Shown here: piece after piece, positions 1,037 to 5,413 of the stretch
How positions within the stretch are numbered: position 1 is the stretch's first letter
Layout of the letters: each line of letters opens with the position of its first letter
Assembly: GCF_001512305.1 (NCBI RefSeq)
Contig: NZ_LNUT01000005.1
Location: forward strand, 593,774-657,773
Direction: 5' to 3'
Origin: Arthrobacter sp. EPSL27
GTDB taxonomy: Bacteria > Actinomycetota > Actinomycetes > Actinomycetales > Micrococcaceae
Length of the DNA stretch: 64,000 nucleotides
Notes under the pieces: model-generated
Database searches by the model: none
Told to the model about the DNA's origin: nothing
The model's input: the letters and a program-made list of their open reading frames with translations, nothing else
Translations under genes and position numbers: made by a program

Positions 1037-1339
1037 TCAGGCGCTGGCGGGAGCAGGCAAGTAATGAGCGCGTGCCTGGATTGCCTGGCTGTAGGCAAGG
1101 GACAGCGCCCACGTCAGCGGAGTACCCTCCGAGGGCCTGTAGGCCGGGGCCTCGCACCAGATGGCCAGATAGGTCGCCTCGAGGACCGTTTGCGCCAGTT
1201 TCGCTTCCGGGATGATCCGGCGGATGAGGCCGTAGCAGCGAGCAGACGTATGCGTATAGAACCTCTCAAACGAAGGTCGGTCGGCGGATGCCACGGCTGC
1301 AAGCAGGCGCACGAGTTCCTCTTTCTGGTTGTCGTCCAT
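1037..1339 (-). CDS. Stand-alone sigma-70 region 2-like protein (truncated ECF type)
   Basis: The 100-residue product resembles only region 2 of an ECF sigma factor: a helix with DRPSFERFYTHTSARCYGLI, then AKLAQTVLEATYLAIW, then a GTPLTWALSLAYSQAIQARAH segment in the place where region 2.4 contacts the -10 element. There is no region 4, and the protein stops about 7 residues after region 2. Full ECF factors are about 170-200 residues. It could be a minimal sigma factor, an anti-sigma decoy, or a decayed remnant. The ATG at 1339 matches where the sigma similarity begins; an in-frame ATG at 1393 would add 18 residues. The repeats at 1404-1444 lie just upstream. Confidence 0.55.
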   Translation of the reverse strand: MDDNQKEELVRLLAAVASADRPSFERFYTHTSARCYGLIRRIIPEAKLAQTVLEATYLAIWCEAPAYRPSEGTPLTWALSLAYSQAIQARAHYLPAPASA

Positions 1340-1403
1340 TGGTGACCTAACACCTGCAGATACCGTCGCCGTCACTGTCACTCCACGATCCATTCAAATT
1401 TCG

Positions 1404-1733: not shown

Positions 1734-1863
1734 CGGCGTTCTGGTAACTGCCTCAGGAGGGCTTGTCCGGGCGGGTTCTCCGGTAGTTCCTGACCGATGG
1801 AATCACAGGCATCTCTGCGGACTGTTCCATTGTCATCTGCGCCAGCCTCATTGAGAATGAACC

Positions 1864-3093
1864 ATGACGGTCTACCTGAGGTCCCTCGAAACCGCTGTCC
1901 CGCCAACTGTCCTGGTCCAAACCGAAGCCCGCGATGTTTTTGCCGCCCAGCCGGGCCTGACGCGGCTCGGCACCCGGCTGGTCGCCACCTGCTTTGACTC
2001 CGCCGCCATCGACACCCGCTACACCGCTGTGGCGGAACTGACCAGTGACCGCCAGGCCGAAAACCCGCAGTTCTTCGACGCCGGCACCGGCCTGCTGCTC
2101 AGCCCCAGCACAAAAGCCCGCAACGATATCTTCGCCACTGAAGCCACCAAACTCTTCGTCGAGGCGGCCGCCAAGGCCCTGGAAGCCTGCCCGGAAATCA
2201 GTTTACTTGACATAACTCACCTCGTAACGGTCTCCTGCACCGGGTTTTTCAACCCCGGACCCGACTACAAAATCGTCCGCGCCCTGGGCCTGAATCCCGC
2301 GGTGCAGCGCTACCACCTCGGATTCATGGGCTGCTACGCGGCATTCCCCGCGCTGCGGGCCGCCAAGTCATTCTGCGACGCGGACCCGGACGCCGTCGTG
2401 CTGGTGGTCTGCGCGGAGCTCTGCTCGCTGCACGTGCGGACCTCCAATGACCCGGACACCATCATGGGCTCGGCCCTGTTCGCCGACGGCGCGGCGGCGG
2501 CCATTGTGACCGCCCGCGAGGACCCGGACCACCCTGCGCTGCTGCAACTGGACCACTTTGAGACGGTCCTGACGCCGGTGGGTGAGGAATCCATGGCGTG
2601 GAACATCGGGGACGAAGGATTCGAGATGGTCCTGGGCAACTACGTCCCGCACATCATCGACGACCACATCATCAGCGCCCTGGAACCGCTCCTCTCCCGG
2701 GAGCCGCACCTCCCGGGACTCCCCTACCGCGACATCCGGCACTGGGCCATCCATCCCGGCGGCCGCAGCATCCTGGACAAGGTGCAGTCCCGGCTGGACC
2801 TGAGCGACGAGCAGCTGGTGCCCGCCCGGGAAACCCTGCGCAATTACGGGAACATGAGCAGCGCCACCGTGCTGTTTGTCCTCCGGCACATCCTGGACCT
2901 TCCCCCGGCGGAAGGCCCCGACGGAGGCGCGGAGCGCATCTGCTCGATGGCTTTCGGCCCGGGGCTGACCGTGGAAACCGCGCTGTTTACCAAGCTGGCC
3001 AGCCCAGGCCGCGGGGAGGCAGCCCAGCCGGCCGCACGGCCTGCGGCAGTCTCGGAGTCCGAGGCGGCGCAGCCGGAATCGGCGCTGGCCTGA
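1864..3093 (+). CDS. Type III polyketide synthase (chalcone synthase family)
   Basis: This homodimeric enzyme family condenses a CoA-activated starter with malonyl-CoA units to give pyrones, resorcinols or related aromatics. The 409 residues contain the catalytic triad: Cys157 in LGFMGCYAA, His297 in WAIHPGG, and Asn330 in NYGNMSSAT. The last 30 or so residues are a low-complexity Ala/Glu/Pro tail outside the fold. The start ATG at 1864 has only a weak purine-rich ribosome site. It is the first gene of a three-gene operon, 6 bp before the methyltransferase. Starter length cannot be read from the sequence; the context suggests a long-chain acyl product that is methylated and then hydroxylated. 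Confidence 0.9.
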   Translation: MTVYLRSLETAVPPTVLVQTEARDVFAAQPGLTRLGTRLVATCFDSAAIDTRYTAVAELTSDRQAENPQFFDAGTGLLLSPSTKARNDIFATEATKLFVEAAAKALEACPEISLLDITHLVTVSCTGFFNPGPDYKIVRALGLNPAVQRYHLGFMGCYAAFPALRAAKSFCDADPDAVVLVVCAELCSLHVRTSNDPDTIMGSALFADGAAAAIVTAREDPDHPALLQLDHFETVLTPVGEESMAWNIGDEGFEMVLGNYVPHIIDDHIISALEPLLSREPHLPGLPYRDIRHWAIHPGGRSILDKVQSRLDLSDEQLVPARETLRNYGNMSSATVLFVLRHILDLPPAEGPDGGAERICSMAFGPGLTVETALFTKLASPGRGEAAQPAARPAAVSESEAAQPESALA

Positions 3094-3099
3094 GGCCCG

Positions 3100-3822
3100 G
3101 TGGACCTCCTGCAGTCGCGGGCGGCCCACGCCGTCGAGGAAATGGACCTGCCCGGCTGTGACCCTGCCCGGCTGGACCGGACCTACGCACAGTTTGCGCT
3201 GGTCAACCGGGCGGTGTCCGGCTGGCGGGGCATCTATGTCTCCCAGATCAGGCCCGGGCTCCGCCGGGGCACGCCGGCCACCCTGCTGGACATCGGCTGC
3301 GGGGGCGGGGACGTGCCGGTCATGCTGGCCCGCTGGGCATCACGGGACTCGCTCCGCCTGGAGATCACCGCCATCGATCCCGATCCGCGGGCCAGCCGCT
3401 TCGCCTCGGCCCGCCACACGGCCGCGGGCGTGACGTTCCGGCAGGCCACGGCCGCCGATCTAGCCGCCGAGGGGCTCAGTTTCGACCTGGTGGTATCCAA
3501 CCATGTGCTGCACCACCTGGCGGAGGACGAACTGCCGGGATTCCTGGCCGAGTCGGCCGCGCTCTGCCGCGGCAGGGTCATCCACAACGACCTCCGGCGC
3601 AGCCCCGCCGCTTACGCCCTCTTCTACGCCGGTGCCCTTCCCTTCACCGGCTCCTACATCCGGCAGGACGGGCTGACGTCCATCCGCCGCAGCTACACCC
3701 CCGCCGAACTCCAGGCGGCCGCTCCCCCGGGCTGGGACGTCCGCCGCCGCGCACCGTTCCGCAACCTGCTGGTCTTTGACGTGACGACAGACGGACGAGC
3801 AGCCGGGACCGCCCGTGCTTGA
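3100..3822 (+). CDS. Class I SAM-dependent methyltransferase of the polyketide operon
   Basis: The 240-residue protein has the SAM-binding motif LLDIGCGGGDVPV near residue 64, an acidic loop (AIDPDP) near residue 90, and a VVSNHVLHHL post-motif typical of small-molecule methyltransferases. It starts with GTG at 3100, 6 bp after the synthase stop, and overlaps the next gene by 8 bp, so it is co-translated. The likely role is methylation of the polyketide made upstream. In the Streptomyces griseus srs operon the equivalent step uses a membrane methyltransferase of a different family, so this would be a non-homologous replacement if the pathway is similar. Confidence 0.8.
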   Translation: MDLLQSRAAHAVEEMDLPGCDPARLDRTYAQFALVNRAVSGWRGIYVSQIRPGLRRGTPATLLDIGCGGGDVPVMLARWASRDSLRLEITAIDPDPRASRFASARHTAAGVTFRQATAADLAAEGLSFDLVVSNHVLHHLAEDELPGFLAESAALCRGRVIHNDLRRSPAAYALFYAGALPFTGSYIRQDGLTSIRRSYTPAELQAAAPPGWDVRRRAPFRNLLVFDVTTDGRAAGTARA

Positions 3823-4957
3823 TGTGCTGGTGATCGGCGGCGGACCCGTGGGACTGTTCACGGCGGCCCTGCTGCTGCAGGAGGGGGTCACCGTCCGGGT
3901 CCTGGAACAACGCACCTACGCCGAGCCGCACTCCCGGGCCATCGGGATCCATCCCCCGTCGCTGGACGCGCTGCAGGGCATCGGCCTGGCGCCCGGCCTG
4001 GTGGCGGAGGGGGTGCAGATCCGGCGCGGCCTCGCCCTGGCCGGCGGCCGGACACTTGCTGAGATGTCCTTTGCCGGGGTCTCGGACAGTTTCCCGTTCG
4101 TCCTCGCCCTGCCGCAGGCCCGGACGGCCGCCCTCCTGGAGCAGCGGGTCCGGCACCTCGACCCCGCAGCCCTCCACCGCGGTGTGCACGTCACGCACGT
4201 GCACGACGACGGCGCCCGGGTCACCGTGGATGCCACGTCGGACGGGGCTCCGGTCCGGTACACGGCCGCCGTCGCCATAGCCGCCGACGGCGTCCGGTCC
4301 GCCGTCCGCGCACAGTCCGGCATCCCGGTCCGGGCCAGGGACTATTCGGACAGCTATCTCATGGGCGACTTCGCCGACTCCACCGGCTTCGGCCCCGACG
4401 CGGCTCTGTTCCTCGAACCGGCGGGAATCGTGGAGTCCTTCCCGCTGCCCGGGAACCTGCGCCGCTGGGTGGTGCGGCTGGCTGGGTCCGGGAATGCCGG
4501 CAATGCCCGGGACGCCGGCTGGCTCGCGGACAGGATCCGCGAACGGACCGGCATCGGTGTGGATCCGGCGGGCAACAGCATGCTGAGCCGGTTCGGGGTC
4601 AGGTCGCGGCTGGTGCGACGGATGGTGGCCGGCCGCACGGTGTTGATCGGCGACGCCGCGCACGAGATCAGCCCCATCGGGGGCCAGGGCATGAACCTGG
4701 GCTGGCTGGACGCCGCCGCACTTGCTCCCGTGGTCCTCGACTGGCTGCGCGGCACACCTCCGGTGGCGGCGTTGCGGGACTTCGAGGCCCGCCGCATGGC
4801 CGCCGCCGCCCGCGCGGTGCGCCAGTCCGAGATCAACATGGCGCTGGGGCGGCCCCTGCCGGGGCTGCGCTGGCAGGTGCGGTGCCGCGCCATCGCCGCG
4901 GCCGGGGCCGTACCCGCGGTGAACGGATTCGCGGCACGCCGCTTCACCATGCAGTAA
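3815..4957 (+). CDS. FAD-dependent aromatic monooxygenase (PHBH fold)
   Basis: The 380 residues begin with the dinucleotide-binding motif VLVIGGGPVGLFTAALLL and carry the second FAD motif VLIGDAAHEISPIGGQGMN near residue 275, both typical of NAD(P)H-dependent flavoprotein hydroxylases such as p-hydroxybenzoate hydroxylase. It probably hydroxylates the aromatic ring produced by the synthase, which could yield a hydroquinone or quinone. The GTG start lies inside the end of the methyltransferase gene (8 bp overlap, GTGCTTGA), showing translational coupling. No membrane segment is seen. It converges with the SnoaL-like gene after 36 bp. Confidence 0.85.
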   Translation: MLDVLVIGGGPVGLFTAALLLQEGVTVRVLEQRTYAEPHSRAIGIHPPSLDALQGIGLAPGLVAEGVQIRRGLALAGGRTLAEMSFAGVSDSFPFVLALPQARTAALLEQRVRHLDPAALHRGVHVTHVHDDGARVTVDATSDGAPVRYTAAVAIAADGVRSAVRAQSGIPVRARDYSDSYLMGDFADSTGFGPDAALFLEPAGIVESFPLPGNLRRWVVRLAGSGNAGNARDAGWLADRIRERTGIGVDPAGNSMLSRFGVRSRLVRRMVAGRTVLIGDAAHEISPIGGQGMNLGWLDAAALAPVVLDWLRGTPPVAALRDFEARRMAAAARAVRQSEINMALGRPLPGLRWQVRCRAIAAAGAVPAVNGFAARRFTMQ

Positions 4958-4993
4958 GCCGCGCGGTTCTATTTTCCGGGAGGCGTCCGGGGA

Positions 4994-5413
4994 TCAGGCG
5001 GGTGTGAAGTAGCAGTCGTAGCTGTCCTGGCTGGCCACCCGGCCGTCCCGGACCTCGAAGACGGACACGATCCGCGCGCGGAGCACATCTCCGGCGTCCC
5101 AGTGGGGCAGGTCCATCAGCGTGGTGGCCGTCCACTCGGCTTCCACCACAACCCGGCTGCCCTCACACGTGGTCCGCTGCACCTCGAAACGCTGCCCGGA
5201 GACGACGCCGCGCGCAGCGTCCGCCCCGGCCAGCACGTCGCTGCGGCTGCGGGTCGCGCCGGCGGGAGCCAGCAGATGCGGCGCCTCGCGCAGCACATAG
5301 TCTTCCGCCAGGAAGGGGGCGACGGCCTCCGCGCCGCCGCCTGCTTCCAGGGTGCGCAGCAGGCCGAGCACACAATTCAACGGGGTCTGGGCCACGGGGC
5401 CGGAAGAAGTCAT
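4994..5413 (-). CDS. SnoaL-like (NTF2 fold) protein
   Basis: The 139-residue protein has the NTF2-like layout: an N-terminal helix, FLAEDYVLREAPHLL, a central VVVEAEWTATTLM strand and a terminal IVSVFEVRDGRVASQDSY strand. Members include polyketide cyclases and many uncharacterised small enzymes. It faces the polyketide operon tail to tail, so a role in cyclising or hydrolysing that product is possible but unproven. TAGTGT ends 5 nt before the ATG, suggesting a leaderless transcript. Confidence 0.65.
   Translation of the reverse strand: MTSSGPVAQTPLNCVLGLLRTLEAGGGAEAVAPFLAEDYVLREAPHLLAPAGATRSRSDVLAGADAARGVVSGQRFEVQRTTCEGSRVVVEAEWTATTLMDLPHWDAGDVLRARIVSVFEVRDGRVASQDSYDCYFTPA

Follow-up and report, generated by a model that had tools for sequence, protein, structure and literature searches.

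A type III polyketide synthase–methyltransferase–monooxygenase operon of Arthrobacter sp. EPSL27 with a probable phenolic lipid product

The window analysed here is the whole 64,000-nucleotide stretch of contig NZ_LNUT01000005.1 (assembly GCF_001512305.1, forward strand, positions 593,774 to 657,773) from Arthrobacter sp. EPSL27, a member of the Micrococcaceae. Its plus strand carries a three-gene operon encoding, in this order, a type III polyketide synthase (PKS), a methyltransferase (MT) and a flavin adenine dinucleotide (FAD)-dependent monooxygenase (FMO) of the p-hydroxybenzoate hydroxylase (PHBH) type, with all open reading frames (ORFs), starts and stops confirmed. The operon probably builds a methylated, hydroxylated phenolic lipid derived from an alkylresorcinol, perhaps a quinone. 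Papers are named by PMC number. The three genes are as follows:

1864..3093, plus strand: type III polyketide synthase, ATG start, 409 amino acids; predicted alkylresorcinol synthase.
3100..3822, plus strand: class I S-adenosylmethionine (SAM)-dependent methyltransferase, GTG start, 240 amino acids; predicted C- or O-methyltransferase of a resorcinol.
3815..4957, plus strand: PHBH-type FAD-dependent monooxygenase, GTG start, 380 amino acids; predicted aromatic ring hydroxylase.

A gap of 6 bp separates the first two genes, and the last two overlap by 8 bp. The arrangement is not due to chance, as each of the 20 neighbourhoods sampled in the host family holds all three genes together and in the same order. 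The synthase contains Chal_sti_synt_N (113.9 bits) and Chal_sti_synt_C (89.9 bits) domains together with a Cys-His-Asn triad, which makes it a type III polyketide synthase. An earlier sequence-only reading of this DNA had described the tight packing and an intact Cys157/His297/Asn330 triad; the gene boundaries match, and the residues sit exactly at these positions. Of 138 other synthases, 137 likewise have C, H and N aligned at the triad positions (24 of 24 plus 113 of 114); the sole exception is L060, where the synthase gene is split between frames. At this Microbacterium plasmid locus (L060 5505-9543) the methyltransferase gene is split as well, and a polyketide-cyclase/SRPBCC gene lies 3' of the monooxygenase gene. 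The 4.18-Mb EPSL27 genome has a single synthase match, by protein search as well as by a family search with Chal_sti_synt_C.

The methyltransferase matches Methyltransf_25 (55.7 bits), carries the SAM motif DIGCGGG (64) and scores 327.5 bits against NCBIfam NF004851/PRK06202 (cut-off 243). NF004851 is the best match for all ten operon methyltransferases submitted, three of them above and seven below its cut-off; it is still the best match for the Paludisphaera (232.4) and Cyanobium (219.2) enzymes, which score under 243. The monooxygenase matches FAD_binding_3 (PF01494) over residues 2-338 with 172.7 bits and has the motifs GGGPVG (8), DGVRS (158) and GDAAH (279). It is 51% identical over 350 residues to its Deinococcus radiodurans counterpart and about 40% identical to those of two Bacteroidota loci. 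Alignments with srs-like, hid-like and alphaproteobacterial flavoenzymes are weak; with the Paludisphaera oxidoreductase, 56 residues align at E 1e-4, which does not place the two in the same lineage. All flavoenzymes compared have PF01494 matches and so belong, as distant relatives, to a single superfamily. The third gene of the operon appears to have been exchanged during evolution. Three loci of the operon's own clade that lack the monooxygenase (L068, L069 and L092) have a nitroreductase-family gene nearby, on the same strand in L068 and L069 and convergent in L092, which perhaps provides a substitute flavoenzyme.

Among 149 genomes of the host family, the synthase is found in 99 (E <= 1e-3) and the methyltransferase in 93 (E <= 1e-20), all of which are among the 99. 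In the operon's clade of the synthase tree described below, the methyltransferase adjoins the synthase in 28 of 28 other loci, and a similar monooxygenase lies within 3.5 kb in 23. A survey of the host's class gave some synthase match in 226 of 394 genomes; among the matches listed, 27 have at least 50% identity, one has 46% and the rest have at most 43%. Outside the class, two Deinococcus records inspected carry the complete operon, with synthases 54 and 59% identical to that of EPSL27. The order PKS-MT-FMO recurs on plasmids of Roseomonas, Methylobacterium and Falsirhodobacter; a planctomycete plasmid has the order MT-oxidoreductase-PKS. A genome-collection scan, whose first query sequence was a planctomycete synthase, kept the best 80 of 590 relatives; in many of these a methyltransferase of this kind and a flavoenzyme accompany the synthase, in cyanobacteria, planctomycetes, acidobacteria, Bacteroidota, Balneolota, Spirochaetota and others. 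A Novosphingobium plasmid (L106 2563-6206) shows a type III PKS and an FAD monooxygenase gene adjoining acyl carrier protein (ACP) and ketosynthase genes, a context that would fit ACP-bound starters in this relative. Across 24 loci, the only families present in at least ten, each identified by the coordinates of one example, are the three operon genes and ORFs overlapping them; the next families reach up to seven loci and reflect synteny within the host genus.

The synthase and the methyltransferase are co-inherited. Their tree distances correlate across 95 operons (Spearman 0.80), a value reached by none of 500 permutations. An operon-type methyltransferase is near the synthase (profile score of at least 100 bits, within 3.5 kb) in 94 of 114 loci on the operon's side of the synthase tree vs 0 of 24 other rows, in a sample that is not neutral, as the profile was built from eight operon methyltransferases and the scan was queried with synthases of such operons. 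Four of the 20 misses on the operon's side lie near the end of a stretch; the rest are real or too divergent.

The synthase tree comprises 99 sequences (quick IQ-TREE run, SH-aLRT as sole support, midpoint root for drawing). Its anchors are PKS11, srs-like loci and hid-like loci, the last being Cyanobium and Synechococcus loci named from their gene content and order; SrsA, PkqA, HidC and the expressed planctomycete synthases stand outside the set. The EPSL27 enzyme falls in a group of 29 rows from Micrococcales and Deinococcus (SH-aLRT 99), which also contains L068 and L069 from other orders of the class. This group is nested in one of 34 rows with Bacteroidota, Balneolota, Spirochaetota and Verrucomicrobiota (SH-aLRT 99), and the latter in one of 70 rows that includes cyanobacterial and planctomycete enzymes (SH-aLRT 91). 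PKS11, PKS18 and tetrahydroxynaphthalene (THN) synthase fall outside the 70 rows. The EPSL27 synthase lies outside the 16-row cyanobacterial and planctomycete group and is thus a distant member of the hid/planctomycete side. It does not belong to the SrsA/PKS10/PKS11 lineage, as marked by PKS11 and the srs-like loci with an ICMT-family neighbour. This grouping agrees with published clades, in which SrsA, PKS10 and PKS11 fall together and HidC, ArsB/C and plant enzymes form another group (PMC8086630). A grouping with a different known product class, named in advance as the outcome that would count against the proposed chemistry, was not observed; the synthase groups, distantly, with alkylresorcinol-type operons.

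The methyltransferase also separates this operon from the srs and pkq systems. SrsB-type methyltransferases are members of the ICMT family (PMC6669644), and an ICMT-family gene adjoins the synthase in the three loci tested outside the 70-row side (L076, L079 and L096). The NF004851-type enzyme of the EPSL27 operon is not of that family. An assignment to srs/pkq is rejected on synthase tree position and methyltransferase family together. The sequence-only reading had likened the gene logic to the srs pathway while assigning the methyltransferase to a different family; that much stands, and the trees and families speak against any nearer kinship to srs or pkq, placing the synthase and methyltransferase instead with the hid/planctomycete-type operons, to which that reading made no reference.

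Upstream of the synthase, the operon shares a bipartite pattern with relatives: CATTGT, 20-21 variable bases and AGAATG or ACAATG (ASAATG), ending 4-5 nt before the ATG. In the window it reads:

1828..1859, plus strand: bipartite promoter-like element CATTGT-N20-AGAATG, ending 4 nt before the synthase ATG.

The element was recognised by eye among 38 upstream stretches. It occurs in 19 of 31 family loci, is not found in the other 12 and is absent from 200 sets of mononucleotide shuffles. Family-wide, the strict pattern has 62 places in 47 of 149 genomes. In 32 of the 99 synthase genomes one such place ends 4 or 5 nt short of the synthase start; the other 30 places lie elsewhere. These 32 genomes comprise all of genera g1 (8), g25 (2), g28 (5) and g32 (7), and five of seven each of g8 and g24. 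The element looks like a sigma-70 promoter whose half-sites are spaced by 17-18 bp, with a predicted transcript beginning at the start codon; a sigma-70-like match spans 1830-1858, one of two in the region on both strands, vs 0.2 in shuffles. These features suggest that the element is a leaderless promoter of the operon, from which all three genes would be carried on one leaderless transcript. Because its half-sites are also inverted repeats, the element could possibly be an operator. In six of the 38 loci (L056, L058, L085, L091, L092 and L188), none with the CATTGT element, a -10-like TANNNT hexamer ends 5-6 nt ahead of the start codon. The background is 0.026 per window, or about one in 38, and the hexamers fit leaderless starts there too. 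Widening the pattern slightly gives two matches in the EPSL27 genome. The only other strict match there (L195 1501-1531) is intergenic, behind an ORF that by eye resembles triosephosphate isomerase, and is not directly before a gene start; no shared regulon was found for the element.

The placement of the synthase offers a concrete product hypothesis. In C. glutamicum, planctomycete synthases produce pentadecyl- and heptadecylresorcinols; when the methyltransferase and oxidoreductase of Gimesia maris are co-expressed, a single methyl group is added, probably on carbon (PMC10896814). By comparison with these products, a route from alkylresorcinol through methylation to hydroxylation, and possibly to a quinone, may be proposed. 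The synthase would load a medium or long fatty acyl-coenzyme A (or acyl-ACP) and add three malonyl units, and the tetraketide would be closed by aldol condensation to a 5-alkylresorcinol. The methyltransferase might then methylate a ring carbon or a phenol oxygen, and the monooxygenase could hydroxylate the ring to a hydroquinone, which could oxidise to a benzoquinone. The product might have a membrane, antioxidant or redox role.

Two residues at positions defined in chalcone synthase bear on the proposed product. W246 aligns with Leu261 of 2-pyrone synthase, and we take both Leu261 and ArsB position 281 to be equivalent to Gly256 of this enzyme (CHS). Trp occupies the CHS-256 position in 114 of 114 relatives on the operon's side of the tree. 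As a Trp at ArsB position 281 has been linked to resorcinol formation (PMC9927152), the residue is a mere hint of the same closure here. M255 aligns with the CHS Phe265 position, where Met is found in 110 of 114 relatives and has been reported for the HidC clade (PMC8086630).

Several points weigh against the proposed phenolic lipid. The Trp is not a strict mark, being present in 17 of 24 other-side rows; CylI, an alkylresorcinol synthase (PMC8086630), has Leu at this position by alignment. The relatives are distant: identity to the Paludisphaera plasmid synthase, itself uncharacterised, is 38%, and HidC and the expressed planctomycete synthases are absent from the tree. To our knowledge, no product has been assigned to any member of the operon's own clade. 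The monooxygenase lineage is neither hid-like nor srs-like, and its substrate cannot therefore be inferred from those enzymes. Tailoring genes are also missing in some relatives. No similar monooxygenase lies within 3.5 kb of the synthase in 5 of the 28 clade loci, and the six family genomes with a synthase and no methyltransferase (G006, G037, G084, G104, G121 and G135) all belong to genus g7. The five of these six genomes that were fetched have the monooxygenase after the synthase and no methyltransferase match in the stretch. These losses argue that the synthase is the core and that each tailoring gene can be absent; a quinone is thus not the universal end product. The five g7 loci (L190-L194) also have two further upstream genes in common, which in the two loci tested encode an APP1-type phosphatidate phosphatase and a GNAT-AAA fusion.

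Other end products were considered. A hierridin-like lipid, O-methylated, hydroxylated and kept as a phenol ether, could act as an antioxidant, membrane component or antibiotic; we regard this as a tentative possibility. The methyltransferase family is common to the EPSL27 operon and the hid-like Cyanobium locus, HidA reportedly transfers methyl groups to phenolic hydroxyls (PMC10896814), and the gene order hidC-hidA-hidB exists (PMC8086630). However, the flavoenzymes are of different lineages, and the enzyme from Gimesia apparently methylates carbon (PMC10896814). Alternatively, the end product may be a benzoquinone serving as an alternative respiratory electron carrier at low oxygen, comparable to those reported for Mycobacterium smegmatis and a Streptomyces. 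Such quinones come from a PKS-methyltransferase-oxidoreductase operon, machinery described as conserved across actinomycetes (PMC9927152); gene functions and order are alike here and in Deinococcus, and presence in 99 of 149 family genomes fits a physiological role. This carrier is nevertheless rather unlikely, given that the synthase and methyltransferase are not of srs-like lineages, that some relatives lack the monooxygenase or the methyltransferase, and that a menB homologue above cut-off indicates that menaquinone is probably made.

That the synthase makes alkylpyrones, with the methyltransferase O-methylating a pyrone, is improbable. Type III PKSs can form their rings in either manner. 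Pyrone-making enzymes are known from Bacillus (PMC8086630), and mycobacterial PKS18 has been named as alkylpyrone-making (PMC5916927). Yet W246 stands where PKS18 and 2-pyrone synthase have Leu, even if the mark is loose; the synthase sits in the tree with alkylresorcinol-type operons, and a ring hydroxylase would be better suited to an aromatic ring. The phenolic lipid derived from an alkylresorcinol remains the preferred product.

A fourth gene lies downstream and converges on the operon:

4994..5413, minus strand: SnoaL_2-domain protein, 139 amino acids, convergent; judged to lie outside the system.

The sequence-only reading had proposed it as a possible cyclase partner, which would make a four-gene system. 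The protein does have a SnoaL_2 domain (52.5 bits), and its gene adjoins the operon in six of seven fetched host-genus loci as well as in the EPSL27 window. It is beside the operon in none of 13 fetched loci from other genera, however, and occurs in 14 of 149 family genomes vs 99 for the synthase. Eight of the 14 are host-genus genomes (one by a weak match on another contig); the other six, in g19 and g26, have no synthase match. Within the host genus, the neighbouring peptide deformylase and RlmA-like genes are likewise found at the same position in seven of seven loci, so that the SnoaL adjacency amounts to local synteny. Type III synthases cyclise unaided. The cyclase role was rejected for its genus-confined adjacency, the local synteny and the occurrence in synthase-free genomes, and a four-gene system is very improbable. 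On the other side of the operon, a 118-aa ORF (1037-1393, minus strand) matches only the first half of extracytoplasmic function (ECF) sigma factors, with a SigK-like best match over positions 8-95 of 194. It is a truncated sigma factor or a remnant and has no counterpart near the operon in any of 20 related loci.

The synthase is present in about two thirds of the sampled family genomes and the operon extends to Deinococcus, yet no characterised product for this branch was found in the open-licence literature. Type III PKS clusters of such bacteria already appear in work based on antiSMASH (PMC12025171, PMC11078813), and for a Pseudarthrobacter cluster no similar known cluster is reported (PMC12025171). 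The natural losses, of the methyltransferase in one genus and of the monooxygenase in five loci, lend themselves to comparison. Were the product a redox-active quinone, polyketide quinones would have arisen more than once. On a speculative and somewhat doubtful reading, the operon may represent a third, separately assembled polyketide quinone route, in which a hid-side synthase and methyltransferase were joined to a PHBH-type hydroxylase recruited separately from those of both srs and hid, yielding another redox or membrane lipid in addition to menaquinone, partly under a dedicated leaderless promoter. Such a route might range over Micrococcales, Deinococcus and some Bacteroidota, Balneolota and Spirochaetota, with the promoter in part of one actinobacterial family.

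Among known systems, the hidABC (hierridin) and planctomycete operons resemble that of EPSL27 in the side of the synthase tree (as represented by hid-like Cyanobium and Synechococcus loci and planctomycetes, HidC being absent), in NF004851 as the best methyltransferase match and in their three-gene make-up. Their usual order is MT-oxidoreductase-PKS, unlike EPSL27, although the order PKS-MT-oxidoreductase also occurs in hid clusters (PMC8086630). The Paludisphaera synthase is distant from that of EPSL27, as noted, and the oxidoreductase is of another flavoprotein lineage. The srsABC operon of Streptomyces griseus and pkqABC of Mycobacterium smegmatis have the same gene functions and order (PMC9927152, PMC6669644). 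The third gene of srs-like loci likewise encodes a flavoenzyme with a PF01494 match, of a different sequence lineage. The srs/pkq synthases, with PKS11 and srs-like loci as stand-ins, lie on the other side of the tree, and the methyltransferase is of the ICMT family rather than NF004851 (PMC6669644; L076, L079, L096). The agq cluster of Actinoplanes missouriensis, likened here by description, makes a further-decorated type III PKS alkylresorcinol (PMC10896814); its product is prenylated, whereas the EPSL27 operon has no prenyltransferase. In Deinococcus, Microbacteriaceae and some Bacteroidota, Balneolota and Spirochaetota there are PKS-MT-FMO operons in which all three genes are homologous to those of EPSL27. 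Monooxygenases of the EPSL27 lineage are found at L161, L167, L172, L183 and L188, with the L172 gene lying 5' of the synthase, unlike in EPSL27. The EPSL27 operon is a known kind of recipe on a branch of its own.

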